64,000 bases of DNA from Ascidia mentula (lineage: Eukaryota; Chordata; Ascidiacea; Phlebobranchia; Ascidiidae): assembly GCA_947561715.1 (NCBI GenBank), contig OX387199.1, positions 2,733,001 through 2,797,000 on the forward strand, read 5' to 3'. Below the pieces are notes generated by a model, which was given only the letters and a program-made list of their open reading frames with translations, did no database searches and was not told the DNA's origin. This document shows, in pieces, positions 39,287 through 64,000 of the stretch. The position numbers and the translations under genes are program-made. Every line of letters starts with the position of its first letter. Position 1 is the stretch's first letter.

Positions 39287-42030
<2,744 letters not shown>

Positions 42031-45700: not shown

Positions 45701-47940
45701 ACTTTCTTTTCTACAGCAAGAGACAGTAATTCCCATTCTGGCAAGTTGATCAATTCAGACTCATCAGATTTAGTGTTAATTAAACTGACAAGATAACCCA
45801 CTAACAAGCACTGTTCATCCATTAACCACCTCAGATAGGAATTTCCATTGGCATTCTGGGCATTGGAAATGAGCAGTTGGCCCAGTTCAGTGCACACATT
45901 AGGAGTATTGAAATTTGAAAACATGACATTCAAAATCTCAGATGCCTGGTTTGCATTACAAAAGCTTACACAGGAAAACAGAGCTCTTGCAGTGTTCCGT
46001 GCATCAACAGTGCTGTTCTCCAGGACACATTTATTAAACAGTGGAACCAGTAGATCTTTTAAAATGGCATAAGCACTGTCATGTGAATTTTGGACTGAAT
46101 CTACCAGGCTAGCTTGATTGGCCACAAGCACCAACAACTGTCCAGAAGTAAAATTGCCCAGGGCTGAATTGAGAAGGCTCAAGGTTTGACATGAAGTGAG
46201 TTCATCCAATGATATGAAATATCTTATCCAGTCAGAAAGAAACTTTTCAAATTGTTCTAACAAATGGGAATTGGAGACACTTTTTGCTTCCGATTGATGT
46301 GAACTTGGCTGTTTTCTTTCATCAAACTTAACCTTCTGTAATTTAGGCAGGGTCTCTTCTTTATGGCATGCTTTGTCCACAGCTTGCAGAAATTTAAGGT
46401 AAGCGTCCAGGGCATCAGTTGTCAGATCATCCTTCATCTCTGATTTGTCAACCAATGAGCAACCTAGTTCAAAAATAAACTTCCACATGACCTTGCATAC
46501 CGATTGAAGATTCTCTGGTCTAGCTGATGTTGCAGATTTCTCTGCCAATGTGCCAACCGTGGTTGCAATCAACTGGTGCAGTGGATTTACAAGATACGAG
46601 TGAAAATCGTTTTTTCTGATTGATTTCTCCAGCAAGGGAAAAAGCTGGAATTTCAAGACATGGTTAGCAACTTCCCAGTCTGGCACTTCACATGCTTCCA
46701 CTGACTTCCTTAAAATGTATTGCATACATTCAATGGTGGCTGTGATGACAGCATTTGTTTCACTGGCACTCTTTGAAATGCTTCCACATTCCATGCCCAA
46801 TTGAAGACATGTAAAAAACTCTTCATAAACCGGAATCACAGCCAATGTTGGCGGAAACTTTGAAATGGCAGGCAACAGGTATGGACATATGTAACGGGCG
46901 TTTCCATAAAAACCAGCCTTCAGCATGCCCCACAACTGTGGAAGGAATCCTTTTCTTACATCCACATGTTCATGCCAATCAGGAAAAGTTTTAATGAGTT
47001 GATCGGCTGCATCCCATATAGCTTTACTGACCAACGGATTTGGCTCATTCAGCTTACACAAGACAGATCTAAGTGCTACAGCTTTATGTGTTTCAAGTAA
47101 GTGGGGCACTGACTGACACAGAGCACTTAAAACACAGTAAAAAGCTGATCTTACTCCTGGCGACTTGTGCTTGGCAAACTTCCAAATTTTGGCATTACCC
47201 AAAATCTTGTCCACCAATGATGATTCAAAATTATTGTCACCAACTTCGAAAAATTTTAAAAAGCAAGCAAGCGCGCCAAGACTGGATGCAATCTCACGAT
47301 ATACATCCGTATCATCACTTTCAGAACTCATTGCTTTGACATTAACAAACATTCCTGTGAACAAAGTTTCTATAATCTGTTCTTGTCCGAATATCACAGC
47401 CTTCTTTCGCTTGTCCTCAGTTGGAAAAGCTTTCTGAAAAGCACTAACAGCAGCAGACGCAGCAGGAGCATAGGAGTCACACTGGGCTATCCACCATGCC
47501 CCGATAATGTTCTTTAGATGTGGGGCAATACTCTTTCCAACTGCAGACACCAAGGCACAAAGAGCACATTGTATAGCCTCTCTTACTCTGCGATCACAAT
47601 CTGTTGATAGTTTGTTGTACAATCGGGGCCAGTAGGGAAGTACACTGCTGGTTGCTGTGATGTCTGAGCTCCCACACAAGTCACTGAATTCAGATAAGGC
47701 TTTCAATTTGGTTGTAACATCTCGTTTTGACAGTTTACACAAAGCTACTTTGAAATGGGGATCAATTAGGCATTCTGTATCTTCCTCAAGAGACTTCAAA
47801 ATTGGTATGTAACCCAGGTCACCAGCGAGAGATTCAAATCCGACCAAGTTATCTGTGGATAGAAAGTTTGCGGCACGACCACTGCTTGAAGGCTTGATGT
47901 TGCCTTTCGTCCTATGGCTTTGCCCCTTTGGCTTTCCCAT
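42736..47940 (-). CDS. LTN1: E3 ubiquitin-protein ligase listerin
   Basis: Listerin binds 60S subunits with stalled nascent chains, with NEMF, and ubiquitinates the chain in ribosome-associated quality control in the cytosol. The frame is 1,734 aa, against about 1,766 in human. The start is fixed by the conserved N-terminus (MGKPKGQSHRTKGN..PSSSGRAANFL) and KLSKRDVTTKLKAL near residue 70. The long middle is HEAT/ARM-like. A C-terminal RING-variant finger has Cys1680, Cys1683, Cys1700, Cys1703, His1708, Cys1711, Cys1724 and Cys1727, ending six residues later at PMMFR, as in the family. No introns are present, unlike vertebrate LTN1. It is intact and very probably functional. Confidence 0.97.
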   Translation of the reverse strand: MGKPKGQSHRTKGNIKPSSSGRAANFLSTDNLVGFESLAGDLGYIPILKSLEEDTECLIDPHFKVALCKLSKRDVTTKLKALSEFSDLCGSSDITATSSVLPYWPRLYNKLSTDCDRRVREAIQCALCALVSAVGKSIAPHLKNIIGAWWIAQCDSYAPAASAAVSAFQKAFPTEDKRKKAVIFGQEQIIETLFTGMFVNVKAMSSESDDTDVYREIASSLGALACFLKFFEVGDNNFESSLVDKILGNAKIWKFAKHKSPGVRSAFYCVLSALCQSVPHLLETHKAVALRSVLCKLNEPNPLVSKAIWDAADQLIKTFPDWHEHVDVRKGFLPQLWGMLKAGFYGNARYICPYLLPAISKFPPTLAVIPVYEEFFTCLQLGMECGSISKSASETNAVITATIECMQYILRKSVEACEVPDWEVANHVLKFQLFPLLEKSIRKNDFHSYLVNPLHQLIATTVGTLAEKSATSARPENLQSVCKVMWKFIFELGCSLVDKSEMKDDLTTDALDAYLKFLQAVDKACHKEETLPKLQKVKFDERKQPSSHQSEAKSVSNSHLLEQFEKFLSDWIRYFISLDELTSCQTLSLLNSALGNFTSGQLLVLVANQASLVDSVQNSHDSAYAILKDLLVPLFNKCVLENSTVDARNTARALFSCVSFCNANQASEILNVMFSNFNTPNVCTELGQLLISNAQNANGNSYLRWLMDEQCLLVGYLVSLINTKSDESELINLPEWELLSLAVEKKVAGKENTTIPVLFGKQALLLLKCSENQLSMNKGPASVYAWNHLVANAVENYAKDLEFIDAVYEHVKMGLKLLLRATIDDVELTLNLAGFQDILNKLLQTVLLPERYLDVLSLEVISHVLHDDRTEAIGNIVNTILQLYSKHDLAAHHVVSWLLALIPSSDVFGKWHSSIDSINWIKAQSLLSGDCISLDVCSDNVYHKELSTKYNGKLGVILNAVVMGCQLFPEVFQIMTLHSFHDLFIESVFLNAVSDADDELTVLHKNLMQHNDFFLDICSKVIGYSVSQGGGWFECLGYLLGLSNPDIEDDLYQLLLDKQSKLDKLDSKLATVINVFIRSFPQNSRKNLVVNWLCKIVLSNDLCYVEDVKGECSMALGIICFVKLMQNEQSTGHKEKIESILQLIVEWKSDYSDLFLFDCDLKEVNNKQLLYNSAIAQFLQFTVVSCVSSIHNDMWDFYQCSTVSWMESVCSTCEAPGKVSIPVFMLLHAACKLLKALGDFLSSQSAIEDPTLPSTLTNEWKEFFEPAANVNLITIFMQLNFNEIRIHDILVICFFDCLVKVSMDSLESAAGRLKPYLYPGSSLSESVQTLLYYLCSVYRKPTQYTPKVQALSYKLLCVLIRNLFTMDDVSSIKEAKVPGSFIDVLHTANDAIQHVWDLFKFQETTKIDVHQSESDDDTEEEISIVECRLPVLEEGDVLLLLSYLFTLRLTVNAASFLLSENKSDYITSMNEDPVTNLENLLKNLWVILPDVPLVYEENNVGKKQIKLNMFEMEPDFTNTKFDLDFIQHLACLLYRDILSNVPVLIRSWYNNLDKLNRANVDSYTSRYVSPVICRAELKNVSQSKQHQDITVRSRLATREVVAKYEVMDASFEIMVQLAVNHPLTPVQVNTVKRVGVAATQWRYWILQMTMLLQHQNGTIMDALLLWKQKVDKRLDGLEECMICFSVVHSSNAQSLPKLECKTCHKKYHAECLYKWFDTSNQSTCPLCRTPMMFR

Positions 47941-48203
47941 GGTGTTTGTTATACAGCTTAATGCGACTGCAAAGAAAGGTTTTGATTAATGATAATTTTT
48001 ATATATTACAATTTCCATAATTTACAGCATAGTTAACACCGTCGTCATTTCGGCGAAATAAAAAAAAAATTCTACGAAAATTATTTTACGCATGAGTGAA
48101 TACAGCTCAATTCAAGTTTCTATGAATTTAAAACATGTTTTATTCGTGATTCAGAAATGTAACTAACTAAAAATCCGCAAAAAAACAAATACAATCAGAG
48201 GAA
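47941..48203. other. LTN1 upstream region / left edge of transposon
   Basis: AT-rich. It must hold the LTN1 5' UTR and promoter as well as the outer edge of the left transposon arm, which by comparison with the right arm reaches at least to about 48,204. The exact boundary and target duplication cannot be set because the right end lies outside the window. Confidence 0.5.
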
Positions 48204-48316
48204 ATAAACAAAAAATTGATAAAATATTAAAAAATTTTACAAATGAAAGCAACATGGACCAGACTATACCAATTTTACATACAAAAAGCAACTGTTAATG
48301 TAAACCAAAAATCAAT

Positions 48317-51143
48317 CACTTTCCGGGACATAGAATTTCCTATGAATTTGCACAGGGCTTGCCTAGAGCATGCTGGTGAAGGTGATCTAAGTTAAAATAC
48401 CAACCGGCTCCACAATTCCCAGCGAAATGGACTCAAACAAAGGTCATTGTGTGTGACGGCATACAGGCTGCTTGTGAGCGCAATGGCGTCAGAAACATCT
48501 TGACAAAAAGCGAAATTCAAACACTTTCCGGGCCATAGGATTTCCTATAATTTTGCACAGGGCTTGGCTAGAGCATGCAGGTGAAGGTGATATAAGTTAA
48601 AATACCAACCGGCTCCACAATTCCCAGCGAAATAGATTCAATGACAGGTTATTGTGTGTGACGGCATACAGGCTGTTTGTAACCGTAATGGCGTCAGAGA
48701 CATCTTGACAAAAAGCGAAAATTCAAACACTTTCCGGGCCATAGGATTTCCTATAATTTTGCACAGGGCTTGCCTAGAGCATACAGGTGAAGGTGATATA
48801 AGTTAAAATACCAACCGGCTCCACAATTCCCAGCGAAATAGATTTAATGACAGGTTATTGTGTGTGACGGCATACAGGCTGTTTGTAACCGTAATGGCGT
48901 AAGAGACATCTTGACACATAAGCGAAAATTCAAACACTTTCCGGGCCATAGGATTTCCTATAATTTTGCACAGGGCTTGCCTAGAGCATACAGGTGAAGG
49001 TGATATAAGTTAAAATACCAACCGGCTCCACAATTCCCAGCGAAATGGACTCAAACAAAGGTCATTGTGTGTGACGGCATACAGGCTGCTTGTGAGCGCA
49101 ATGGCGTCAGAGACATCTTGACAAAAAGCGAAATTCAAACACTTTCCGGGCCATAGGATTTCCTATAATTTTGCACAGGGCTTGCCTAGAGCATACAGGT
49201 GAAGGTGATATAAGTTAAAATACCAACCGGCTCCACAATTCCCAGCGAAATAGATTCAATGACAGGTTATTGTGTGTGACGGCATACAGGCTGTTTGTAA
49301 CCGTAATGGCGTAAGAGACATCTTGACATACAAGCGAAAATTCAAACACTTTCCGGGCCATAGGATTTCCTATAATTTTGCACAGGGCTTGCCTAGAGCA
49401 TGCAGGTGAAGGTGATATAAGTTAAAATACCAACCGGCTCCACAATTCCCAGCGAAATGGACTCAAAGGCAGGTCAATGTGTGTGACGGCATAGAGGCTG
49501 CTTGTGAGCGCAATGGCGGCAGAGACATCTTGACAAAAAGCGAAAATTCAAACACTTTCCGGGCCATAGGATTTCCTATAATTTTGCACAGGGCTTGCCT
49601 AGAGCATACAGGTGAAGGTGATATAAGTTAAAATACCAACCGGCTCCACAATTCCCAGCGAAATGGACTCAAACAAAGGTCATTGTGTGTGACGGCATAC
49701 AGGCTGCTTGTGAGCGCAATGGCGTCAGAGACATCTTGACATAAAGCGAAATTCAAACACTTTCCGGGCCATAGGATTTCCTATAATTTTGCACAGGGCT
49801 TGCCTAGAGCATACAGGTGAAGGTGATATAAGTTAAAATACCAACCGGCTCCACAATTCCCAGCGAAATAGATTCAATGACAGGTTATTGTGTGTGACGG
49901 CATACAGGCTGTTTGTAACCGTAATGGCGTAAGAGACATCTTGACATACAAGCGAAAATTCAAACACTTTCCGGGCCATAGGATTTCCTATAATTTTGCA
50001 CAGGGCTTGCCTAGAGCATGCAGGTGAAGGTGATATAAGTTAAAATACCAACCGGCTCCACAATTCCCAGCGAAATGGACTCAAAGGCAGGTCAATGTGT
50101 GTGACGGCATAGAGGCTGCTTGTGAGCGCAATGGCGGCAGAGACATCTTGACAAAAAGCGAAAATTCAAACACTTTCCGGGCCATAGGATTTCCTATAAT
50201 TTTGCACAGGGCTTGCCTAGAGCATACAGGTGAAGGTGATATAAGTTAAAATACCAACCGGCTCCACAATTCCCAGCGAAATGGACTCAAACAAAGGTCA
50301 TTGTGTGTGACGGCATACAGGCTGCTTGTGAGCGCAATGGCGTCAGAGACATCTTGACATAAAGCGAAATTCAAACACTTTCCGGGCCATAGGATTTCCT
50401 ATAATTTTGCACAGGGCTTGCCTAGAGCATACAGGTGAAGGTGATATAAGTTAAAATACCAACCGGCTCCACAATTCCCAGCGAAATAGATTCAATGACA
50501 GGTTATTGTGTGTGACGGCATACAGGCTGTTTGTAACCGTAATGGCGTAAGAGACATCTTGACATACAAGCGAAAATTCAAACACTTTCCGGGCCATAGG
50601 ATTTCCTATAATTTTGCACAGGGCTTGCCTAGAGCATGCAGGTGAAGGTGATATAAGTTAAAATACCAACCGGCTCCACAATTCCCAGCGAAATGGACTC
50701 AAAGGCAGGTCAATGTGTGTGACGGCATAGAGGCTGCTTGTGAGCGCAATGGCGGCAGAGACATCTTGACAAAAAGCGAAAATTCAAACACTTTCCGGGC
50801 CATAGGATTTCCTATAATTTTGCACAGGGCTTGCCTAGAGCATACAGGTGAAGGTGATATAAGTTAAAATACCAACCGGCTCCACAATTCCCAGCGAAAT
50901 GGACTCAAACAAAGGTCATTGTGTGTGACGGCATACAGGCTGCTTGTGAGCGCAATGGCGTCAGAGACATCTTGACAAAAAGCGAAAATTCAAACACTTT
51001 CCGGGCCATAGGATTTCCTATAATTTTGCACAGGGCTTGCCTTGAGCATACAGGTGAAGGTGATATAAGTTAAAATACCAACCGGCTCCACAATTCCCAG
51101 CGAAATGGCAGGTCATTGAATGTGACGGCATAAAGGCGATTTG
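48317..51143. repeat. Left arm: about 14 tandem units of ~206 bp
   Basis: Units start with CACTTTCCGGG at about 48,317, 48,522, 48,728, 48,935, 49,140, 49,347, 49,553, 49,758, 49,965, 50,171, 50,376, 50,583, 50,789 and 50,995. From 49,347 a three-unit block (~618 bp) repeats three times, so the array has higher-order structure. The last unit is changed past its middle (ends 'ggcgatttgttgtg'). Confidence 0.9.
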
Positions 51144-51521
51144 TTGTGATATGTAATAAATTAGCCTATTTTGTGTCAGTATGCCGGTATTGGTATAAAG
51201 CCACTACACCACGTCAAGGTTCCGGCAATCGTAGTGGTTTTATTTTGCAGATAAAACTACATTTGGATGCAATCACATCCAAATGAAGAAAAGAACTGAT
51301 CTGAAATGTAAACATATTGTTTTATTCTGAAATTTATAACAAAAACATAACTGCTAAGTTAGTTCACATGCATTGATATGTTCCTATACATTGGTTTAGA
51401 ACCATATGGTAGTCAGGCATCCCCTTCTGAAAAACTGTTGTTTATCTTAAATGTATTTCGAATGAACGCGGAAACAACAAGTATAGACAATAAGATGGCT
51501 GGCAAATGTAACAGTGTCCTT
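51144..51521. other. 3' flank of the large transposon gene
   Basis: Between the left array and the stop of the large minus-strand frame. On the minus strand AATAAAAC lies near 51,320, a likely polyadenylation signal. A small inverted repeat (acatttggatg..catccaaatg) occurs at about 51,250-51,280. Confidence 0.5.
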
Positions 51522-54500
51522 TTAAACAAAAATCGATGGTTTGGAACCGACCCTTCTACACGTTTCCTCGTATGTACAGCCACTCGTACTCATTAAATAA
51601 CAAATGATGGCCTCAAAGTACAAAACGTTGTTTAGGAAAAAATTTACATCAAGTATTTTGTCCATCACCATTTCACTCAACATGCTTCCTTCCACAATCA
51701 AACCTGGTTTCAAATCTCGGCCGCAAAATGATTCTCGGAAAACCTGACTACCAACAAGTCGTTGACGCACGAGACGTCGACAAAACGAATATTCCACGAA
51801 TCGCATTATATTGCTCATTTCATCCTGGGAAATTGTAAGGGGGGAAAAATTTTTGTTGTACTTTATCAACATATTTTTTTTACCATGGTAATATAAACAT
51901 AGGCGGTAACATTCTGGTAAATTTTTTGCTTGTTGAAATGATATTAATAAAGCCGACTTTATTTTGTTGAAAATAAGGTCATATGATTGTTTTCTAGCAG
52001 AGTTTAATTCAGTAACATTCGAAATTACAATATTTCTTCCATCTATGTATTGCTCCAAAACAATATTTGTTTGAATAATGCGATCCGTAGACTTCGCTGC
52101 CGACGCGTTGAAACATCGTGGCTTGCGACGGACAAAAATCTTAGGTTGGGCTGGGGTGCTGGATGAATCAACACCGGTCTTAACTTTTTTGTAAAATAAT
52201 ATGCAACAACCCGTAAGTATCCTTTCTTTAACACTATTCCATGCGACATGTTTTACAGTGTCGTCATTAAATTCTGTCAAATGAAATTTATTGAATTTGT
52301 ACGTCAAATAATGGCCTGAGTTAACACTGGATCCAATATGTACAACAACAGACATAAGCTTAAACGAAACTCCTTGTTCAAAACGCAACAATTCATCTGG
52401 GACTATACGTTTATTACTTTTCTTGCCACTTATATTCCTAAAAACAACAATGCATAATACGTCTGTTGGACTTTTGAGCTCACTGCTAATCTTCTTCTCT
52501 GTATCCAAATTACAGTGGGAACAATGGCTGATGGCAACGTTGTGAAATTCAGTTTCACAATATGTACTGAGATTACTGTTGTCCGGGATGTGATCGAACA
52601 ATGGCAACGTAAGTACAGATTGCTCATTCTGAAATTTCGCCTCGTTGCCACATGTCTTGCAAGTTTTTGATGTATGATACTTAAACGACCAGTTTAAACC
52701 ACAACTCTTTATTACGGAAGCAAAATTAAAAAGCATTAAAAATTCAGTGGGGTCCTGCTGCTCATTTAAATTAAAATTAAGGTGACTACAGACGTCTTCG
52801 ACCAATTTCAAGTATGATGAGGAATCAACGTAGTTCTGTGCAAGATGATAAACTAAGTGACCAATCCTACTTTCTATCGTGGCTTTACGGGGAAAAACAC
52901 AAGGGCGATCTAACAAACATTGAAGAGCTTGTAACACAGAATTTAACCAACAGTTATTATATAAATTTGGAAGACCGGGCAAAACTAGCTTGTTTTTAAC
53001 AATCCAAGTATTTAATTTATCACTGCAACTGATCGATTCCTGGACAAGCGCAAACACAATCCAAATACGATATCGCGCAACGTCGAACTCAATCTTATCA
53101 ATCCCAATTATGTTGTTTGCAATTTTTTCTACGGTGAAACATACACACAAACCGCAACTAGACAGATCACTCTGATATACAAGTGAGTCGGATTTAAAAG
53201 TAAGGTTACGACCGGTTATTGAAACAAAAATCGGAATTAAATATTTTCTTACTAAAGGCGTGAGTTCTTTTCGCGGACTTCCAGTAGAATCATAAAGAAC
53301 CATTTCGTTCTCAAAATGTTTAAACCACAAAATCACAAAATGCCCTTCAAAAAGAACTGGAATGAAAACATGCTCACACAAACGTTCGTTATGAAACATG
53401 CCATGAAGTGCTTTGCGAATGTTTTTGAATTGTTTGCCCTGCAAAATTTCTCCCGCTGTAATAGTTGACACAAACCCAAAGGCGCCAGTCATACGTAAAT
53501 TACAATAACGGAGTGTTCTGGAAATATAACAGTCTACAACGTTGTCCGTTAACCAACCAATTGTTAAGTCACTGTGTGTATTCGCCGGGTTTTGAGTTAA
53601 AGCACAATAAGTTTTCCCACGAGGTCTACTGCAAAGGGAACACAAATCTAACCACGAAACTGACTGACGACAGGGCATGACGAGGGCGGTGTCAAAAATT
53701 GAAGTTGGGGTAAAAGGTATATGATGCCAAACGAAATCTGCAATTTTTTTACAGTCAATAAAACTATCATGGAATTTTGGACAGACAGAGAAAAATGGCA
53801 TTGGCGGGGTGCACTTAAGTGTTAACATTGGTTGTGGGGAAAGTGATACTTTGTTTTCAAATTTTACACGTTTACACATAATTTCCGATGAGTAAAAACT
53901 GGTTTTGTTTCTTTTCCTCTTTTTGAACTTTGACTCCACAACCAATGTACGTTTGGCGGTTTTAATATTATTTGCTTTTAAAGGGGATTTGTTCGGTTGT
54001 TCACGAAAGCTCAACATAGAATCTGCAAAAAGTTTTTGTAAAACTTTAATAGCATCATAATATTTGGAGACAAAATCGTCTATACGAGCTATTCTTTTTC
54101 CATTGAATATATTTGTTTTTAAATCACCGAAATGCTCCTCAATTATTCCTTGGGTTTTGTTATTGCGTAAAACTGTTTGGTGTACACAACTTTTCATGAC
54201 GTTACAGTCTGTGGAATAAGTGTAAAACATTTTCGCCTGCTCGTCACTAGTTTTGCCTTCGTGAACATGCCGTGACAAACCCCCAAGCATTATCTTTGAT
54301 GTTGCACATATTCTACTTAAAACCACTTCAATTACACGTTCACAAAAACTGGGATTGCAATAAAGATTGTTTTTTATTTTTGTTTCGTTTTGTTTGTACA
54401 CATGTGAATTTAAAAATTCATCTAATTTGCGTTTGTATCGACAACAAAATGGAGATTGTTTTTCCTGTAATTTGTCAGTATGTTTATTACAAAAAGTGTA

Positions 54501-57500
54501 GTCCGTATCCTCTTTCACGCCATTGTCGTCGTCAGTCATATTGATACTGAATTTACCAGAAATTACCATTGATGTTAGCCGATTAAAATGTGTCTGAAGT
54601 AATGAGGATGATGTTTCGCAGTTAGTCAACACAATAAAACTTTCCACAGCAATGTCTAAGTCTGCAATCGTCTCACAATTAAAAAAAACATTGAGCCAAA
54701 ACAAGTAAGTTTTTGACAGTTTGGAACTTTTGCAATGTTTGCTGCACAACGACTTCGCTGCTTTCATTGCATGGCTATAACAATTGTGAACAACAGTTTT
54801 TTTTAGGTCGCCGTAATTTGGAACTCCTGTCGCAATGCGGTAACAACGGTTATAATATTCCAAACGAGATTCTCTACAAAACGCTTTCAAAACTGCGTTC
54901 CACATTGCCATTGAGCCATCAATGATAAGCAGTTTTGGCTGGCGGGACACACTACAGACTTTGATACAATCAAAAAGAAACGTTTCCAAAAAGTGACTTA
55001 TCGAAATTGCGTCATGGTTCGTTGTCACGCAAGTTGCAACTGGAAGCGGTGTGCAACCTTTGCTTGGGTTTCTAATTAACAAAGTATAAACTTGAAAGTC
55101 TTTGTAATTTTCCATCCGGCGCAACACGCTTCCAGTGGCATCAAAATACACAACGTCCACAGCGCAAATTCGGTTAAACGTTTTCAATTGTGCGTTCGTG
55201 TACATCGTTACCAAAGGAGGATGTAAACGAATGCAACGTACAAACTTTATATCATCCTTTTCCATTTCTAAAAGCTTTACGTACAAATTTACAAACCATA
55301 ATCTACTGTGCTTGTTTCCGTGGCTGTTTTCGCTTTTGATGTTATTTAAAACTGATTTCGATGGAAAATAAGTATGGGCGCCTAACCAACGTTCTTCAGG
55401 ACAAAGTTTGTCGAATAATTTTCTGTGCTGATTTACGGCAGTTTGATTTTTCAACTCTTGGCGAATTTTGTCCCTCAACAAGCCACTTATGCGTCTACTT
55501 TTTCTACATCCAGGTTTATGATTACGCTTACCAGATATTTCAACCCGTCCTTCGACCTTGTCTACAAATGACCAAAATGTTACAACAAACTTAACGCCAC
55601 ACATGCAATCTTCACAGCTTTTATGGGCGCAATACAAATTTATCCAACCTTCCTTGTTACAGTTTTTATCCTTAGCAATCGCCTCAAAGTTTAACAAATA
55701 ATTGTTTGACACATTCGGGACACAACCGGCATACATCTTTCGAATTTGTTCAACAGCAATATCAACATACAACTCATTACCAAAATGGTGATTGGATCTA
55801 TTTTCGACCAGGGATTGCCACTCCTGCAAGGACAACATAAACATGCCACTAACATTAACATTTGCACTGTGATGAAATTTTCGCTGAATGTCCAAACTTA
55901 CTCCACCAAGTTCATTAATTACATCACAAGTTTCTTTGTTAGGAGAATAAACACATGCATTATCGTTTTCGGCTGCAATTTCTCCACATAACATCGTCGT
56001 AATATCGTCTCCGAAACTGTTGTTATCCAAACCATCAAAACCACTATGGTGGAGTTCAATGTTTTCCTCAGAAGCAACGCATGATGCCTTTTCCTCTACA
56101 GATCTAGAAGCAACCGGTGTACTAGTTTTAACGGGGAACTCAAGGTCAACAGCGAAAGTCTCAAAATCAAAACTACGACAGGTTGTGTCAGCGGAAGACG
56201 CATTCGGAATTTTATCGTTAGGCGAAAGTTTATTGTCGCCATTTAGTGAAACTTCACACTGTTGTGTTCTATGTGCAAAGCAAGATTGAGATTCAAGATG
56301 AACGCCAGAACATACCAAATTCGAGCACTTCCACTGGTCTTTCGTTAAAGTTACTGCGACGGACGATTTGTCAAACACGCATTTGGGATGAAACCACTGC
56401 AGACACGTTTCACACTCCACCATTAATGTACCATCGTAGGGCATATTGCAAACACAGAATAAAGTTTCATCAGGTACAGGCGTACTAGCTGGTGACAAAT
56501 TTTGGGATATTTCCAAGTGATGCGTTTTTTTGAAACCCGTTTGAACTTTTTTGCGAAATTCACTGTTTGAAGCCCAAAACTTTTTTACTTTTAACCTGTT
56601 TTTTTCGCTCAAACCAAGTTTACAACATTTCAAAACCTCCTTAACGGCCTTGTTTGGCAGCCTTGACGTCCTTGGATATTCATGCAAACATTTAACTAGA
56701 GCTTGAACAGCTCCAAAAAAATTGATTTCCTCGTTTCGTGGTGTGGTTAAGGAGGTGGAACCGCGGCGTGGAGCCAACGACTTCTTAATTTCTTTTTCAT
56801 TAGCCTTACAAAACTGGAACAGCTTTTTTAATCGCTTGTTAATTTCAACTCCCTCCCATAAATTGCAAGAGCACAGAAAATTAAAGCCAAGTGTTTTTGT
56901 GAATTGTTTACGTCCATAAAAGTCCAAATATCGGCAAATTACTTTAATTTTTCCATCACGAGTTTTATACTTGCCACCACCAGTTTGCACCAACCGTCCA
57001 GATAACCGCAACGGTAACAATAAAGCAGGTACGCAAGCATATCGCTTTCGACCAGGCCGGCTTCTCCAAATTACTCGACGAAAACCAGGAATAAACGAAA
57101 AACAGCTGAAGGCGCAATCAATCACATATCCAAAACCAACCGAAGACAAACAGTACTGCATAAAAAAAAGGTAGAACACAAAAAAACTGAGGATAGTGTA
57201 AATACCTCGTTTGAAGCCATCGAACGCAAATCCAAACAACTTTCCTATTGTACGAACGGCTTTAGCAGTCCCGCTGCGCTTTGCTTCATTGTCGACTCGG
57301 CCATGGGAGCCAACAGCTTTAGCCGACGAGTCACGAACGGCTTTAGCAGTCCCACTGCTCTTTGCTTCATTGTCGACTCGGCCATGGGAGCCAACAGCTT
57401 TAGCCGACGAGTCACGAACGGCTTTAGCAGTCCCACTGCTCTTTGCTTCATTGTCGACTCGGCCATGGGAGCCAACAGCTTTAGCCGACGAGTCACGAAC

Positions 57501-58418
57501 GGCTTTAGCAGTCCCACTACTCTTTGCTTCATTGTCGACTCGGCCAAGGGAGCCAACAGCTTTAGCCGACGAGTCACGAACGGCTTTAGCAGTCCCACTG
57601 CTCTTTGCTTCATTGTCGACTCGGCCATGGGAGCCAACAGCTTTAGCCGACGAGTCACGAACGGCTTTAGCAGTCCCACTACTCTTTGCTTCATTGTCGA
57701 CTCGGCCAAGGGAGCCAACAGCTTTAGCCGACGAGTCACGAACGGCTTTAGCAGCCCCACTGCTCTTTGCTTCATTGTCGACTCGGCCATGGGAGCCAAC
57801 AGCTTTAGCCGACGAGTCACGAACGGCTTTAGCAGTCCCACTGCTCTTTGCTTCATTGTCGACTCGGCCATGGGAGCCAACAGCTTTAGCCGACGAGTCA
57901 CGAACGGCTTTAGCAGTCCCACTACTCTTTGCTTCATTGTCGACTCGGCCAAGGGAGCCAACAGCTTTAGCCGACGAGTCACGAACGGCTTTAGCAGTCC
58001 CACTGCTCTTTGCTTCATTGTCGACTCGGCCATGGGAGCCAACAGCTTTAGCCGACGAGTCACGAACGGCTTTAGCAGTCCCACTACTCTTTGCTTCATT
58101 GTCGACTCGGCCAAGGGAGCCAACAGCTTTAGCCGACGAGTCACGAACGGCTTTAGCAGCCCCACTGCTCTTTGCTTCATTGTCGACTCGGCCATGGGAG
58201 CCAACAGCTTTAGCCGACGAGTCACGAACGGCTTTAGCAGTCCCATTGCTCTTTGCTTCATTGTCGACTCGGCCATGGGAGCCAACAGCTTTAGCCGACG
58301 AGTCACGAACGGCTTTAGCAGCCCCACTGCTCTTTGCTTCATTGTCGACTCGGCCATGGGAGCCAACAGCTTTAGCCGACGAGTCACGAACGGCTTCCTT
58401 CATGTTCTTTAGCCGCAT
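51522..58418 (-). CDS. Transposase-like protein fused to PHD, Ulp1 and USP domains
   Basis: Single open frame of 2,298 aa. Order: fourteen 27-aa repeats (9-386); a hydrophobic stretch (about 405-445); a PHD finger (about 645-700, CVCNMPYDGTLMVECETC..WFHPKC); a CDCMC...HKPGC zinc-type motif (about 1000); a DDE-like core with D in YFDATGSV (~1089), D in LIIDGSMAMW (~1164) and E in TQGIIEEHFGDLK (~1426); a Ulp1/C48 protease with H in GHFVILWF (~1690), D in LYDSTG (~1708) and Q/C in QSDLSSCGLC (~1750); a USP with Cys box GLPNLYNNCWLNSVLQAL (~1819), two CxxC pairs and His box SGHYLTY (~2035), ending CCILFYKK; and a C-terminal tail of about 220 aa. The closest types known to me are metazoan transposases of the MULE or KDZ/Zisupton kind with Ulp1. 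The Met at 58,418 is the first in frame. A small spliced intron near 57,160-57,215 cannot be excluded. Confidence 0.8.
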   Translation of the reverse strand: MRLKNMKEAVRDSSAKAVGSHGRVDNEAKSSGAAKAVRDSSAKAVGSHGRVDNEAKSNGTAKAVRDSSAKAVGSHGRVDNEAKSSGAAKAVRDSSAKAVGSLGRVDNEAKSSGTAKAVRDSSAKAVGSHGRVDNEAKSSGTAKAVRDSSAKAVGSLGRVDNEAKSSGTAKAVRDSSAKAVGSHGRVDNEAKSSGTAKAVRDSSAKAVGSHGRVDNEAKSSGAAKAVRDSSAKAVGSLGRVDNEAKSSGTAKAVRDSSAKAVGSHGRVDNEAKSSGTAKAVRDSSAKAVGSLGRVDNEAKSSGTAKAVRDSSAKAVGSHGRVDNEAKSSGTAKAVRDSSAKAVGSHGRVDNEAKSSGTAKAVRDSSAKAVGSHGRVDNEAKRSGTAKAVRTIGKLFGFAFDGFKRGIYTILSFFVFYLFFMQYCLSSVGFGYVIDCAFSCFSFIPGFRRVIWRSRPGRKRYACVPALLLPLRLSGRLVQTGGGKYKTRDGKIKVICRYLDFYGRKQFTKTLGFNFLCSCNLWEGVEINKRLKKLFQFCKANEKEIKKSLAPRRGSTSLTTPRNEEINFFGAVQALVKCLHEYPRTSRLPNKAVKEVLKCCKLGLSEKNRLKVKKFWASNSEFRKKVQTGFKKTHHLEISQNLSPASTPVPDETLFCVCNMPYDGTLMVECETCLQWFHPKCVFDKSSVAVTLTKDQWKCSNLVCSGVHLESQSCFAHRTQQCEVSLNGDNKLSPNDKIPNASSADTTCRSFDFETFAVDLEFPVKTSTPVASRSVEEKASCVASEENIELHHSGFDGLDNNSFGDDITTMLCGEIAAENDNACVYSPNKETCDVINELGGVSLDIQRKFHHSANVNVSGMFMLSLQEWQSLVENRSNHHFGNELYVDIAVEQIRKMYAGCVPNVSNNYLLNFEAIAKDKNCNKEGWINLYCAHKSCEDCMCGVKFVVTFWSFVDKVEGRVEISGKRNHKPGCRKSRRISGLLRDKIRQELKNQTAVNQHRKLFDKLCPEERWLGAHTYFPSKSVLNNIKSENSHGNKHSRLWFVNLYVKLLEMEKDDIKFVRCIRLHPPLVTMYTNAQLKTFNRICAVDVVYFDATGSVLRRMENYKDFQVYTLLIRNPSKGCTPLPVATCVTTNHDAISISHFLETFLFDCIKVCSVSRQPKLLIIDGSMAMWNAVLKAFCRESRLEYYNRCYRIATGVPNYGDLKKTVVHNCYSHAMKAAKSLCSKHCKSSKLSKTYLFWLNVFFNCETIADLDIAVESFIVLTNCETSSSLLQTHFNRLTSMVISGKFSINMTDDDNGVKEDTDYTFCNKHTDKLQEKQSPFCCRYKRKLDEFLNSHVYKQNETKIKNNLYCNPSFCERVIEVVLSRICATSKIMLGGLSRHVHEGKTSDEQAKMFYTYSTDCNVMKSCVHQTVLRNNKTQGIIEEHFGDLKTNIFNGKRIARIDDFVSKYYDAIKVLQKLFADSMLSFREQPNKSPLKANNIKTAKRTLVVESKFKKRKRNKTSFYSSEIMCKRVKFENKVSLSPQPMLTLKCTPPMPFFSVCPKFHDSFIDCKKIADFVWHHIPFTPTSIFDTALVMPCRQSVSWLDLCSLCSRPRGKTYCALTQNPANTHSDLTIGWLTDNVVDCYISRTLRYCNLRMTGAFGFVSTITAGEILQGKQFKNIRKALHGMFHNERLCEHVFIPVLFEGHFVILWFKHFENEMVLYDSTGSPRKELTPLVRKYLIPIFVSITGRNLTFKSDSLVYQSDLSSCGLCVCFTVEKIANNIIGIDKIEFDVARYRIWIVFALVQESISCSDKLNTWIVKNKLVLPGLPNLYNNCWLNSVLQALQCLLDRPCVFPRKATIESRIGHLVYHLAQNYVDSSSYLKLVEDVCSHLNFNLNEQQDPTEFLMLFNFASVIKSCGLNWSFKYHTSKTCKTCGNEAKFQNEQSVLTLPLFDHIPDNSNLSTYCETEFHNVAISHCSHCNLDTEKKISSELKSPTDVLCIVVFRNISGKKSNKRIVPDELLRFEQGVSFKLMSVVVHIGSSVNSGHYLTYKFNKFHLTEFNDDTVKHVAWNSVKERILTGCCILFYKKVKTGVDSSSTPAQPKIFVRRKPRCFNASAAKSTDRIIQTNIVLEQYIDGRNIVISNVTELNSARKQSYDLIFNKIKSALLISFQQAKNLPECYRLCLYYHGKKNMLIKYNKNFSPLTISQDEMSNIMRFVEYSFCRRLVRQRLVGSQVFRESFCGRDLKPGLIVEGSMLSEMVMDKILDVNFFLNNVLYFEAIICYLMSTSGCTYEETCRRVGSKPSIFV
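57258..58391 (-). repeat. 81-bp coding minisatellite, 14 units
   Basis: Fourteen units of 81 bp encode AVRDSSAKAVGS-(H/L)-GRVDNEAKSSG-(T/A)-AK. Units 3-7 and 8-12 have the same order of H/L and T/A variants, so a five-unit block (405 bp) was duplicated. Because 81 is divisible by three and the unit lacks stops in several frames, long open frames also appear on the + strand and in another minus frame; these are by-products. GC content is well above the neighbourhood. Confidence 0.92.
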
Positions 58419-58630
58419 GCAGTCAACGACGGAACCGAAACAGCTTAGGGGTTTGTATTTTCTTCGTCCGTTGAGTGATGGACTGGAGTGGAAAGAGTTG
58501 TTTGGAGTTGCTTTTTTTGGACAGACGTTGACGGTTGAAACTGTTTAACAGAAAATAGTTTGAATTGTGTCAAAATAAATTTGTTTCGTAATTTGTACTG
58601 CAAATTATTACAATACGAAATGGGAAACCA

Positions 58631-59569
58631 TTAGATTATATGCTGCATTGAAATTATTTTGGTCATTTTTATCTCACCAACTGAATCTTCCACAGCCAGA
58701 AGAGTATGGACATGTTCTTCAAGACTGTCCATGTAGTGGCGCAGCCCTGCGTCTGAGAGATGGAGTTTATCGCTCCAGTTCCCTCGATCGTTGGAGATGT
58801 TAAAATCCAAGAAGCTGAGCCCATACTCCTGAGCAAGGTTGCACAGTACCCGGTTGACTTGTGGAACGCAGTCTTTGTGAAAACCAGATTGTTTCAAGAT
58901 TCCAGCCATCACAATCTTAAACGAACATCATAAAAAAATGACTTATACCATTGAATATATTTCTAACCAAAAGGGGGAGTACGTTTATGTTACGCAAACA
59001 GACAAAAAATACTGGGGCCTGTATTCCTATTATTTGCTACGTGTTTAACAACTAAACTAACGTTGCTTACACAACAATAAACCAACCTGGGACTGCGGGT
59101 ACGTTTGTTGGCACACCTCGATCAGCTGTTGAAAATCAGTCCCGATACTGTTATGGTGGTGATCAGCATGCCGAGAGACCAGGTCGTTCGTACCAAGAGC
59201 CAGAATGATAAAATCAACTGACTCGAACCTTTTCCCGTACATGAGTTCCTCCGCCCCATGGTTCAGTGTTCCCCCTGGAATAGAAATGGCACTTAAAGTA
59301 AAAAGTTTACTTATCGCCGATACCACCTGGGGGCAGACAATGTTCCTCCCGTTGCTATCGGTCACCAACAACACGGAAGGAAGTGGTGACCCCTCAGCAA
59401 GGAGGTAACATGTCTGCTTCCCGGACACTCCAACTTCATATTTCTTGGGCGGCGTTCTTCTTCCCATCGTCAATTGATCTTTGCTCCTCAAACACAGGAC
59501 TGTCGTGGCTTGTTGAGAAATGTATTGGATACTGAGGTAGGCGGATATGGATGATGTCTCGGATAGCAA
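58631..59569 (-). CDS. SGNH/GDSL hydrolase-like gene of the transposon, two exons
   Basis: Exon 1 runs from 59,569 (or more likely the second Met, MGRRTPPKKYE, at 59,467) to 59,087. The intron is 58,916-59,086 (gttggt...ttaag). Exon 2 is 58,915-58,631, phase 0. All four blocks of the SGNH family are present: Ser in LLVTDSNGRNI, Gly/Asn in LALGTNDL, and Asp/His in SDKLHLSDAG. The family includes esterases and lipases; SGNH-like domains are also carried by several transposable elements with unknown roles. It lies upstream of the large frame on the same strand, with a gap of about 210 bp. Confidence 0.75.
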
Positions 59570-60280
59570 TGGATGATAATAGAGCGTTTCGCAAGTATAG
59601 TTTTCTGCAAAATTATCAATTTAAATAAAACAGATCCCGTCAGCACAGATTGCATCGTTTCAAAGAGTGCTTAACTGCGTCTCCCAGTCGTTAACCACTC
59701 TTCACACTTAGCTACATCTCCCATACTTCAATTACGTCAATTAACAGATGAAAGGTATCATTTTAATTCAATACGATAGGAAAGAACTTAAATAATTCTG
59801 CTTTAAAAGACTTAAAATAGTTTTAAACTTTCTTCACTAAGTTTATGTAAAAATCAAACCATCATTGTATGCATCGCGGTAAGCTTCTCCAAGGCAAATA
59901 TAAAGTTCTACACAATCTTATAGTCACCTACACGAACAAAATAATCAAAAATCTTCAAACATCTACTCACCAAGGTAACAAATAGCAAGTGAACTTTAAT
60001 AAAATTTTGAACAAACTTCCGGTGTAATTGCTGTGACGTAACAAAGGTTAAGAAAGACGTCCATTGGGCAATTTAAAATAGGAGCAAAAGAGGAGCAATT
60101 GCTCCGACCAATCAGACAACACAAAATTACATTGAAAACATTATGAAAATGATAATGAGGAATATGGAGAAAACACAACATATTTCATAACGTTAAACAT
60201 CTTCAACGCCACACCCAACTACAAAACGATAGTATTAAGCTAGGTAAAAGATGAGGAAAAGTAAGCCGCTTTCAGACAAT
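59570..60280. other. Upstream region of the transposon genes
   Basis: About 700 bp, AT-rich, between the SGNH-like gene and the right array. It presumably holds the promoter. I see no coding frame or clear motif. Confidence 0.45.
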
Positions 60281-63200
60281 TTTGCTGGGAGTTGTGGAGC
60301 CGGTTGGTATTTTAACTTATATCACCTTCACCTGCATGCTCTAGGCAAGCCCTGTGCAAAATTATAGGAAATCCTATGGCCCGGAAAGTGTTTGAATTTT
60401 CGCTTTTTGTCAAGATGTCTCTGCCGCCATTGCGCTCGCAAGCAGCCTCTATGCCGTCACACACAATGACCTGCCTTTGAGTCCATTTCGCTGGGAATTG
60501 TGGAGCCGGTTGGTATTTTAACTTATATCACCTTCACCTGCATGCTCTAGGCAAGCCCTGTGCAAAATTATAGGAAATCCTATGGCCCGGAAAGTGTTTG
60601 AATTTTCGCTTTTTGTCAAGATGTCTCTGCCGCCATTGCGCTCACAAGCAGCCTCTATGCCGTCACACACAATAACCTGTCATTGAATCTATTTCGCTGG
60701 GAATTGTGGAGCCGGTTGGTATTTTAATTTATATCACCTTCACCTGCATGCTCTAGGCAAGCCCTGTGCAAAATTATAGGAAATCCTATGGCCCGGAAAG
60801 TGTTTGAATTTTCGCTTTTTGTCAAGATGTCTCTGCCGCCATTGCGCTCACAAGCAGCCTCTATGCCGTCACACACAATGACCTGCCTTTGAGTCCATTT
60901 CGCTGGGAATTGTGGAGCCGGTTGGTATTTTTACTTATATCACCTTCACCTGCATGCTCTAGGCAAGCCCTGTGCAAAATTATAGGAAATCCTATGGCCC
61001 GGAAAGTGTTTGCATTTTCGCTTTTTTCAAGATGTCTCTGCCGCCATTGGGGTCACAAGCAGCCTGTATGCCGTCACACACAATGACCTTTGTTTGAGTC
61101 CATTTCGCTGGGAATTGTGGAGCCGGTTGGTATTTTAACTCATATCACCTTCACCTGCATGCTCTAGGCAAGCCCTGTGCAAAATTATAGGAAATCCTAT
61201 GGCCCGGAAAGTGTTTGAATTTTCGCTTTGTGTCAAGATGTCTCTGCCGCCATTGCGCTCACAAGCAGCCTCTATGCCGTCACACACAATAACCTGTCAT
61301 TGAATCTATTTCGCTGGGAATTGTGGAGCCGGTTGGTATTTTAATTTATATCACCTTCACCTGCATGCTCTAGGCAAGCCCTGTGCAAAATTATAGGAAA
61401 TCCTATGGCCCGGAAAGTGTTTGAATTTTCGCTTTTTGTCAAGATGTCTCTGCCGCCATTGCGCTCACAAGCAGCCTCTATGCCGTCACACACAATGACC
61501 TGCCTTTGAGTCCATTTCGCTGGGAATTGTGGAGCCGGTTGGTATTTTTACTTATATCACCTTCACCTGCATGCTCTAGGCAAGCCCTGTGCAAAATTAT
61601 AGGAAATCCTATGGCCCGGAAAGTGTTTGCATTTTCGCTTTTTTCAAGATGTCTCTGCCGCCATTGGGGTCACAAGCAGCCTGTATGCCGTCACACACAA
61701 TGACCTTTGTTTGAGTCCATTTCGCTGGGAATTGTGGAGCCGGTTGGTATTTTAACTCATATCACCTTCACCTGCATGCTCCAGGCAAGCCCTGTGCAAA
61801 ATTATAGGAAATCCTATGGCCCGGAAAGTGTTTGAATGTTCGCTTTTTGTCAAGATGTCTCTGCCGCCATTGCGCTCACAAGCAGCCTCTATGCCGTCAC
61901 ACACAATGACCTGCCTTTGAGTCCATTTCGCTGGGAATTGTGGAGCCGGTTGGTATTTTAACTTATATCACCTTCACCTGCATGCTCTAGGCAAGCCCTG
62001 TGCAAAATTATAGGAAATCCTATGGCCCGGAAAGTGTTTGAATTTTCGCTTTTTGTCAAGATGTCTCTGCCGCCATTGGGTTCACAAGCAGCCTGTATTC
62101 CGTCACACACAATGACCTGCCTTTGAGTCCATTTCGCTGGGAATTGTGGAGCCGGTTGGTATTTTAACTTATATCACCTTCACCTGCATGCTCTAGGCAA
62201 GCCCTGTGCAAAATTATGGGAAATCCTATGGCCCGGAAAATGTTTGAATTTTCGCTTTTTGTCAAGATGTCTCTGCCGCGCTCACAAGCAGCCTCTATGC
62301 CGTCACACACAATGACTTTTGTTTGAGTCCATTTCGCTAGGAATTGTGGAGCCGGTTGGTATTTTAACTTATATCACCTTCACCTGCATGCTCTAGGCAA
62401 GCCCTGTGCAAAATTATGGGAAATCCTATGGCCCGGAAAGTGTTTGAATTTTCGCTTTTTGTCAAGATGTCTCTGCCGCCATTGCGTTCACAAGCAGCCT
62501 GTATTCCGTCACACACAATGACCTGCCTTTGAGTCCATTTCGCTGGGAATTGTGGAGCCGGTTGGTATTTTAACTTATATCACCTTCACCTGCATGCTCT
62601 AGGCAAGCCCTGTGCAAAATTATAGGAAATCCTATGGCCCGGAAAGTGTTTGAATTTTCGCGTTTTGTCAAGATGTCTCTGCCGCCATTGCGCTCACAAG
62701 CAGCCTCTATGCCGTCACACACAATGACCTGCCTTTGAGTCCATTTCGCTGGGAATTGTGGAGCCGGTTGGTATTTTAATTTATATCACCTTCACCTGCA
62801 TGCTCTAGGCAAGCCCTGTGCAAAATTATAGGAAATCCTATGGCCCGGAAAGTGTTTGAATTTTCGCTTTTTGTCAAGATGTCTCTGCCGCCATTGCGCT
62901 CACAAGCAGCCTCTATGCCGTCACACACAATGACCTGCCTTTGAGTCCATTTCGCTGGGAATTGTGGAGCCGGTTGGTATTTTAATTTATATCACCTTCA
63001 CCTGCATGCTCTAGGCAAGCCCTGTGCAAAATTATAGGAAATCCTATGGCCCGGAAAGTGTTTGAATTTTCGCTTTTTGTCAAGATGTCTCTGCCGCCAT
63101 TGCGCTCACAAGCAGCCTCTATGCCGTCACACACAATGACCTGCCTTTGAGTCCATTTCGCTGGGAATTGTGGAGCCGGTTGGTATTTTAACTTATATCA

Positions 63201-63890
63201 CCTTCACCTGCATGCTCTAGGCAAGCCCTGTGCAAAATTATAGGAAATCCTATGGCCCGGAAAGTGTTTGAATTTTCGCTTTTTGTCAAGATGTCTCTGC
63301 CGCCATTGCGCTCACAAGCAGCCTCTATGCCGTCACACACAATGACCTGCCTTTGAGTCCATTTCGCTGGGAATTGTGGAGCCGGTTGGTATTTTAACTT
63401 ATATCACCTTCACCTGCATGCTCTAGGCAAGCCCTGTGCAAAATTATAGGAAATCCTATGGCCCGGAAAGTGTTTGAATTTTCGCTTTTTGTCAAGATGT
63501 CTCTGCCGCCATTGCGCTCACAAGCAGCCTCTATGCCGTCACACACAATGACTTGCCTTTGAGTCCATTTCGCTGGGAATTGTGGAGCCGGTTGGTATTT
63601 TAACTTATATCACCTTCACCTGCATGCTCTAGGCAAGCCCTGTGCAAAATTATAGGAAATCCTATGGCCCGGAAAGTGTTTGAATTTTTGCTTTTTGTCA
63701 AGATGTCTCTGCCGCCATTGCGCTCGCAAGCAGCCTCTATGCCGTCACACACAATGACCTGCCTTTGAGTCCATTTCGCTGGGAATTGTGGAGCCGGTTG
63801 GTATTTTAACTTATATCACCTTCACCAGCATGCTCTAGGCAAGCCCTGTGCAAATTGATAGGAAGTTCTATGTCCCGGAAAGTGATTGAT
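60281..63890. repeat. Right arm: about 18 inverted tandem units of ~206 bp
   Basis: Same unit as the left array, in reverse orientation; CCGGAAAGTG recurs about every 206 bp from 60,381 to 63,874. Units near 60,999 and 61,616 share private variants (GCATTTTCGC, TTGGGGTCAC), so a three-unit block (~617 bp) was duplicated here too. One unit near 62,233-62,433 is a few bases short. The 65-codon frames inside are not genes. Confidence 0.9.
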
Positions 63891-64000
63891 TTTTGGCTTA
63901 CATTAACAGTTGCTTTTGGTATGTAAAATTGGTATGGATCCATGTTCATGTCCATGTTGCTTTCGTTTTTAAAAATTTTCGTTACTTTGTCAATTTGTTG

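Follow-up and report, generated by a model that had tools for sequence, protein, structure and literature searches.

The sequence considered here is a 64-kb window, meaning the whole stretch of DNA analysed, taken from contig C52 of the 196-Mb genome (G000) of the ascidian Ascidia mentula; coordinates are positions in the window unless a contig is named. Its right-hand part holds a large mobile element, which we consider, with a probability of about 0.7, to be an intact-looking cut-and-paste DNA transposon of MULE-like (Mutator-like element) type and Rehavkus-like lineage in an ascidian genome. The element spans 48038-64170 (16,133 bp), its right end, G000:C52:2797170, lying 170 bp beyond the window. 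This copy is called W, and its family A. Two inverted satellite arms enclose a core with two genes, one of them encoding a giant protein in which a DDE-like transposase core is followed by two predicted proteases.

Ends and satellite arms

The left end is placed at 48038 because the aligning ends of other copies share a sharp boundary there, ACCGTCGTCATTTCGGCGAAAT. An earlier note on this DNA, made from sequence alone, had set the limits at 48204 and 64000, and both are here moved outward; the matching outer end and target duplication that it proposed looking for to the right of 64,000 were both located. The target-site duplication (TSD) reads TAGTTAAC, with its left copy at 48030-48037 and its right copy at 64171-64178, beyond the window. 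Inside it lie unique outer ends. The left one (48038-48306, plus strand) starts with ACCGTCGTCATTTCGGCGAAAT and a 13-bp dyad, ATTTCG-G-CGAAAT, and the right one (minus strand) occupies 63900-64000 in the window and runs on to 64170. They are 269 and 271 bp long and match as the earlier note had claimed, 225 of the 263 ungapped columns being identical (85.6%).

Both ends could be located at 15 insertions, these being six of the 11 fetched family A copies, six copies of family B, one of A2 and two of C. The TSD is 8 bp long in 13 of them and 9 bp in one (C67b), and is lacking in one (C72a). None of 210 mispaired-flank controls shares 8 bp or more, the maximum being 7, reached once. Genome-wide, the 21-bp terminus has 38 matches on one strand and 39 on the other when up to two mismatches are allowed (13 matches are exact, and the rest include related families), while the same pattern read backwards is found 0 and 0 times. 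The terminal dyad carries two paired changes between families (ATTTCG-G-CGAAAT against ATTCTG-G-CAGAAT). The sharp ends and the duplications show that the element has moved.

The arms are built of a 206-bp satellite. Anchored counting gives 14 units in the left arm (48307-51108, plus strand) and 18 in the right, which is inverted (60279-63899, minus strand); Tandem Repeats Finder (TRF) gives 206 bp x 13.6 and, for the complementary array, 206 bp x 17.6. The two methods agree with the approximately 14 and 18 inverted units read earlier. The variant that the outermost units had been said to share is present on both sides, and each outermost unit has its closest match in the correspondingly placed unit of another copy, C52b. 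Among the 10 two-armed family A copies there are 1 to 41 units per arm, and blocks of identical units occur, such as units 5-7 and 8-10 of the left arm of W, or nine units in the right arm of C52b. It is clear that the satellite units turn over faster than the core, and that the outermost units stay alike by position. Three copies (C67a, C70 and C72a) share a fusion of the right array to the first gene near residue 496 of its product, and are best read as an internal-deletion lineage.

The satellites of different families are otherwise unlike, the unit being 206 bp in family A, 188 bp in B and 180 bp in C. However, the 206-bp unit and the 188-bp unit contain one identical 18-bp box, TTCCGGGCCATAGGATTT (E 1e-05). 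It was ruled out as the best-conserved stretch of the family A unit, where it ranks 68 of 189 windows. Homogenisation between the arms of one element was also considered. In seven elements the matched left and right arms are more alike than under most permutations, 29 of 5,040 reaching the observed sum; for the three most similar copies, however, some of the six possible pairings (0.2088-0.2134) give a smaller value than the matched one (0.2124). The idea was dropped for this last reason, as relatedness may explain the likeness of arms. C67a has two left-type ends, an isolated sign of arm exchange.

The coding core

The core between the arms is 9.17 kb long and carries two genes on the minus strand, in line with the 9.1-kb core with two same-strand genes described before. 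They are an open reading frame, ORF1, and a spliced gene for an SGNH hydrolase. ORF1 (51522-58418) is uninterrupted and encodes 2,298 residues, comprising N-terminal repeats, a PHD finger, a zinc-binding region, a DDE-like core, Ulp1 and USP domains, and a conserved C-terminus. Its parts were compared with L042, L043, L045 and L046, which with W represent five families of this genome. They were also compared with four relatives, P0001-P0004, obtained by a protein search with the DDE piece; one of the four is a Styela clava protein. A protein search with residues 574-2298 found no relative.

The N-terminal repeats come from an in-frame minisatellite (57252-58396; TRF 81 bp x 14.1, giving 27-residue repeats). 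This stretch is open in other frames too, and its coding role is putative. In W the minisatellite is followed by a hydrophobic stretch, weakly matched in family B (37% over 46 residues). Family C has an N-terminal in-frame minisatellite of its own (L043 2258-3655; 51 bp x 27.4, 17-residue repeats), unrelated to that of A.

The PHD finger (residues 655-699; 56322-56456) is matched by Pfam at 5.1e-06, and the match is at or over the cut-off in W, L042, L045, L046 and P0002, and just below it in L043 and P0004. Its nearest sequences in the PDB are KDM7A, SHORT LIFE, PHF2, EBS, DIDO1 and BPTF, several of which are readers of trimethylated lysine 4 of histone H3 (H3K4me3). A Cys/His-rich region at about residues 924-976 (55491-55649) is probably a DNA-binding zinc domain, judging by its motif. 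The DDE-like core (54039-55181) is recognised by motif order only, with D1093, D1167, NCxSH at 1212-1216, and E1427. Searching the PDB with a profile of the DDE alignment produced two rows, both at E 1.4 and regarded as chance, and a PHROGs search gave no match.

The two protease domains come next. The Ulp1/C48-type domain (53049-53576; H1693, D1710, C1755) was identified from Pfam, profile and motif. In W alone the Pfam C48 match is under the cut-off (0.013), while with relatives it is found in two of three members (best E 3e-05), and a three-row profile matches SENP1 across the domain (0.0024). The USP/C19 (UCH) domain (residues 1815-2076; 52191-52976; C1823, H2036 and ND from 2051) matches PF00443 at 1.6e-12, and this model is over the cut-off in all five families. 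The motif residues of DDE, Ulp1 and USP are kept, save for one Ulp1 position taken up below, in W, L042, L043, L045 and L046 and, where spanned, in P0001-P0004. Thus all the parts named in the earlier note (DDE-like core, PHD, Ulp1, USP and SGNH) are recognised. The profile check that it proposed for the protein bore out USP and, with relatives, C48, but yielded no transposase profile.

The SGNH gene has two exons, at 59084-59467 (with TDSNGRN and GTND blocks) and 58631-58912 (with a DKLHLSD block), and a predicted 171-bp phase-0 intron between them, with donor CAG/GTTGGT and acceptor TTTAAG/ATT. Exon 1 alone matches Lipase_GDSL_2 at 0.012 and the joined exons at 6.8e-11, above the curated cut-off; splice-like signals stand at the same position in family C. 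The ORF1 search of the genome described below gave 39 rows, 27 of which are separate ORF1 places, the other 12 being further pieces of the same places. Of these 27 places, 20 have an SGNH gene upstream of ORF1 and on its strand. It was not found at four 53% (family B) places, nor at C67:7695190, C72:10819795 and C70:3358339. The comparison used those SGNH rows, 30 of 115, that have at least 60% identity and hold all or most of the first exon, and none of the dropped rows lies at the seven places lacking the gene. The SGNH proteins of families A and C share 73% identity, with a ratio of replacement to silent substitution rates (dN/dS) of 0.17 and a dS of 1.07. We infer that the gene has a maintained accessory function. 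The genome also has a few dozen remoter matches to SGNH, at approximately 28-43% identity; some of these resemble one another, and they perhaps lie in other mobile elements.

At C2:893223 the SGNH gene stands beyond a 13.6-kb insertion in ORF1 of copy C2a (C2:896552-910185; loci L014-L016). This insertion carries an approximately 190-bp tandem array of its own, in a single orientation, has ACAACGG on either side, and is probably another satellite-bearing mobile element.

Families, exchange of parts and genomic setting

Other copies of arms and core, which the earlier note suggested looking for, are found throughout this comparison. A genome protein search with ORF1 gave at least 39 rows; 27 of 345 candidates were scored, so that these counts are a lower bound, and a decayed B copy in L029 is absent from the 39. 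Among these rows, at least 17 run without a stop across 1,470 or more query residues, in open frames of 1,562-2,596 residues and at 45-100% identity. Core sequence is present in 10 of the 11 fetched family A copies, W included, and the nine besides W are about 92-99% identical to it in DNA over long matches. In family C (45-47% identity), arrays are inverted around six of the eight cores that fall in the listed part of 322 matches.

Selective constraint is seen between families. When W, L042 and L046 are compared two by two, dN/dS is 0.11 in DDE (where dS is near 1.6 in two of the three pairs), 0.24-0.28 in Ulp1 and 0.21-0.43 in USP; in most other pairs dS is saturated. Both genes are constrained between families. 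Among family A copies the picture of selection is mixed.

On the evidence of its sequence, W looks like an autonomous element. The earlier note had called it an autonomous element with a new combination of parts, and the combination is real, but it occurs in several diverged families and partly in P0003, and is to that extent older than this copy. P0003, from another record, combines DDE and Ulp1 with the beginning of a USP domain. An unrooted tree places it beside P0001, P0002 and P0004 and away from the sequences of this genome, and for these two reasons the joined DDE-Ulp1-USP architecture probably predates these families.

The two halves of the protein do not share one history. L042 (C72:4753443) is 86-100% identical to L046 at W residues of about 1020-1620 and 57-82% thereafter, while against W it is 55-93% identical at residues 1020-1579 and 85-97% after that. 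The trees of the transposase and protease halves disagree, and an approximately unbiased (AU) test rejects forcing either half into the grouping of the other (p 2.65e-61 and 4.85e-05). As judged from these conflicting trees, the halves have different histories and have been exchanged as modules between families.

The neighbour of W on the left is the listerin gene LTN1, a single open reading frame on the minus strand (42736-47940). The element is inserted 97 bp upstream of its ATG, and hence likely in its promoter. Elsewhere in the window are three SNORD18 small nucleolar RNA copies found with Rfam (40119-41805, plus strand), about 800 bp apart, as in a small nucleolar RNA host gene; two open reading frames of NLR type, with NACHT and NOD2-winged-helix domains (17-1738 and 27287-29134, plus strand); and a piece of retrotransposon RNase H (13105-13608, minus strand; Pfam RT_RNaseH, 2.7e-21). 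As regards the host, COX1 on contig C79 has AGR codons at positions of conserved glycines, and a mitochondrial code in which AGR specifies glycine marks ascidians.

Movement, classification and known systems

The MULE motif order is D...D...CxxH...E, and it is seen in the resident MULE reading frames of this genome. The corresponding order in ORF1, the PHD finger, the Cys/His-rich region before the core and the satellite termini are the features on which the classification as MULE-like and Rehavkus-like is based. The 8-9 bp TSD at 14 of the 15 sites is inside the 8-11 bp range given for MULEs (PMC6446971, Table 1). This and the other papers cited below are represented by excerpts of their text.

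There are a number of observations that weigh against our interpretation. The DDE region has no Pfam transposase match (E ≤ 10). A search of the genome with the MULE model PF10551 gave 49 places, 48 of them over the cut-off and none at these elements, and hhalign of the DDE alignment against 10 resident MULE sequences gave a probability of 1.3% over 21 columns, from shallow profiles. The TSD is 8 bp at 13 of 15 sites, not the 9 bp of Rehavkus. C72a has none, and five of the 11 family A copies (C2b, C2c, C72b, C67c and C70) fall outside the count, an end being altered, missing or outside the stretch. The catalytic Asp of Ulp1 is Asn in L043 and L045, two of the five families, and the Ulp1 of C67a and that of C72a each differ from W by 1 silent and 11 replacement changes. 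As for the box, its counterpart in family C is only 76% identical over 25 bp (E 0.21, alone not significant), and within family A it is not unusually conserved (0.971 against a mean of 0.940, hence the rank given above). Finally, any targeting of promoters is argued from one insertion and the likeness of the PHD finger.

Some of these points suit a different classification, that the element is a DDE transposon of a superfamily of its own, having only the RNase-H fold in common with Rehavkus and MULEs, with PHD finger and satellite termini acquired convergently. Neither Pfam nor hhalign links it to MULE sequences, the TSD is 8 bp at 13 of 15 sites, and 20 of 27 places have SGNH as an additional gene. 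However, the DDE profile is too shallow for the negative result to weigh much, and the motif order, PHD finger, Cys/His region and satellite termini jointly resemble Rehavkus and MULEs (PMC6446971, PMC10218199). We therefore regard a separate superfamily as possible but doubtful.

Returning to a MULE-like transposon, a DDE enzyme cutting and pasting with an 8-bp stagger would fit the duplications and motifs. The transposase is inferred to bind both the terminal dyad and the box, of which each satellite unit has one (TTCCGGGCCATAGGATTT in two families). If so, the arms would serve as extended series of binding sites through which the two ends are drawn together. This proposal draws on the shared box and on Galileo, in which repeats inside the inverted termini carry further transposase sites (PMC3688188). 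Units may slip or exchange unequally with one another, so altering arm length. The PHD finger may steer insertion to active promoters; its likeness to the readers listed above, together with the insertion 97 bp from the LTN1 ATG, suggests such targeting. Ulp1 and USP could strip SUMO and ubiquitin from the transposase, or from transpososome, silencing or repair proteins at the donor and target sites. A role of SUMO- and ubiquitin-type pathways in transposition has been proposed earlier (PMC2836005).

The arms might instead be passive by-products of slippage, with no role in transposition of what is otherwise the same transposon. The range of 1 to 41 units per arm would be expected of such arrays, as would recent blocks of identical units such as the nine in C52b, and the box is not specially conserved within family A. 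Yet arrays are present in each family looked at (A, A2, B and C) despite their differing sequences, and two unlike satellites have an identical 18-bp block in common, which makes passive arms the less probable account.

We tentatively offer a fuller hypothesis, though we think it unlikely to hold in every part. These elements may form a distinct animal superfamily, in which a transposase reads H3K4me3-type promoter chromatin and erases SUMO and ubiquitin marks in one polypeptide, has a maintained SGNH gene as its partner, works with self-expanding satellite trains of sites, and trades its halves between families. If true, they would be a source of satellite DNA and a natural mobile system that targets promoters and counters silencing. 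The element may help to clarify how transposons give rise to satellite DNA, and satellite DNA to transposons. One genome here has numerous coding copies, spread over several families whose satellites differ, and it is thus possible to test both whether satellite units in transposon ends serve as transposase sites and how satellite arrays are born. The PHD finger offers a specific handle on chromatin-guided insertion.

Two other explanations fare much worse. The inverted tandem-repeat arms resemble Foldback, and an 8-bp TSD fits P, hAT and KDZ elements, so that a Foldback/Galileo-type element of the P superfamily, or a KDZ element, comes to mind; the earlier note followed both leads. The Pfam library holds P-element, THAP and KDZ models, and none matches (whole protein, E ≤ 0.1; DDE piece, E ≤ 10), which leaves this explanation very improbable. 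A domesticated host gene (PHD-Ulp1-USP) lying by chance between two inverted satellite blocks would account for the long intact reading frame and the constraint on the domains, but is refuted by the number of copies that share sharp ends and show target duplications, quite apart from families at 45-100% identity and arrays that flank other cores too.

Among known systems the closest is Rehavkus, an outgroup or family of MULEs described only from arthropod and annelid hosts, with a 9-bp TSD, one open reading frame, a PHD finger and a minisatellite (PMC6446971). Rehavkus-1_TC is 9.5 kb long and has a 164-bp satellite in its inverted termini, mostly as 5 and 8 monomers (PMC10218199). In PMC13359780 and PMC4438587 Rehavkus is used only as an outgroup or lumped class, as far as the excerpts go. 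The comparison is with the published description of Rehavkus. The present element is similarly large, has a PHD finger in its transposase protein and satellite units (206, 188 or 180 bp) in inverted termini, and appears to share the MULE-type motif order. It differs in its second gene and its ascidian host, as well as in the TSD; Ulp1, USP and SGNH go unmentioned for Rehavkus in the excerpts of PMC6446971 and PMC10218199. In view of the differing TSD and number of reading frames, the lack of a match to the MULE model and the shallowness of the hhalign comparison, we call it Rehavkus-like and do not file it as a member. In the open-licence literature we found neither Ulp1 and USP beside a DDE core nor an SGNH gene in such an element, and neither a chordate host nor an 18-bp box common to unlike satellites. 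SGNH appeared only in the title of a reference, on a Helitron capturing an SGNH gene, in the excerpts of PMC7599744 and PMC6825717.

The arms have several parallels. Long inverted tandem-repeat termini define the Foldback structural class, and are found here. Phantom/Foldback-type MULEs such as Tm1 (PMC3169594) have composite inverted termini, an 8-10 bp TSD and a zinc finger before DDE, but the Tm1-A protein matches PF10551 and FLYWCH, and the protein here matches neither; Phantom was dropped as a candidate for this reason. Galileo has long inverted repeats with internal tandem repeats, but encodes a THAP and P-type transposase (PMC3688188), neither of which is matched here. Tetris of Drosophila virilis has inverted termini of approximately 220-bp tandem repeats, an 8-10 bp TSD and satellite-like array growth; according to the excerpt it has no known transposase (PMC4079207), whereas there are many coding copies here.

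The protease domains recall Ginger1 and Ulp1-bearing Mutators, which have a C-terminal Ulp1 and, in one Ginger1 family, a PHD finger (PMC2836005); Ulp1 in transposons is also treated in PMC3212892. The Ginger core is Gypsy-integrase-like, and the excerpt of PMC2836005 speaks neither of satellite arms nor of a protein combining Ulp1 with USP, although it does mention a C19 peptidase joined to transposase_11 in Trichomonas. The protein predicted here, in which proteases of SUMO type and ubiquitin type are both joined to a transposase, extends the suggestion made in that paper.

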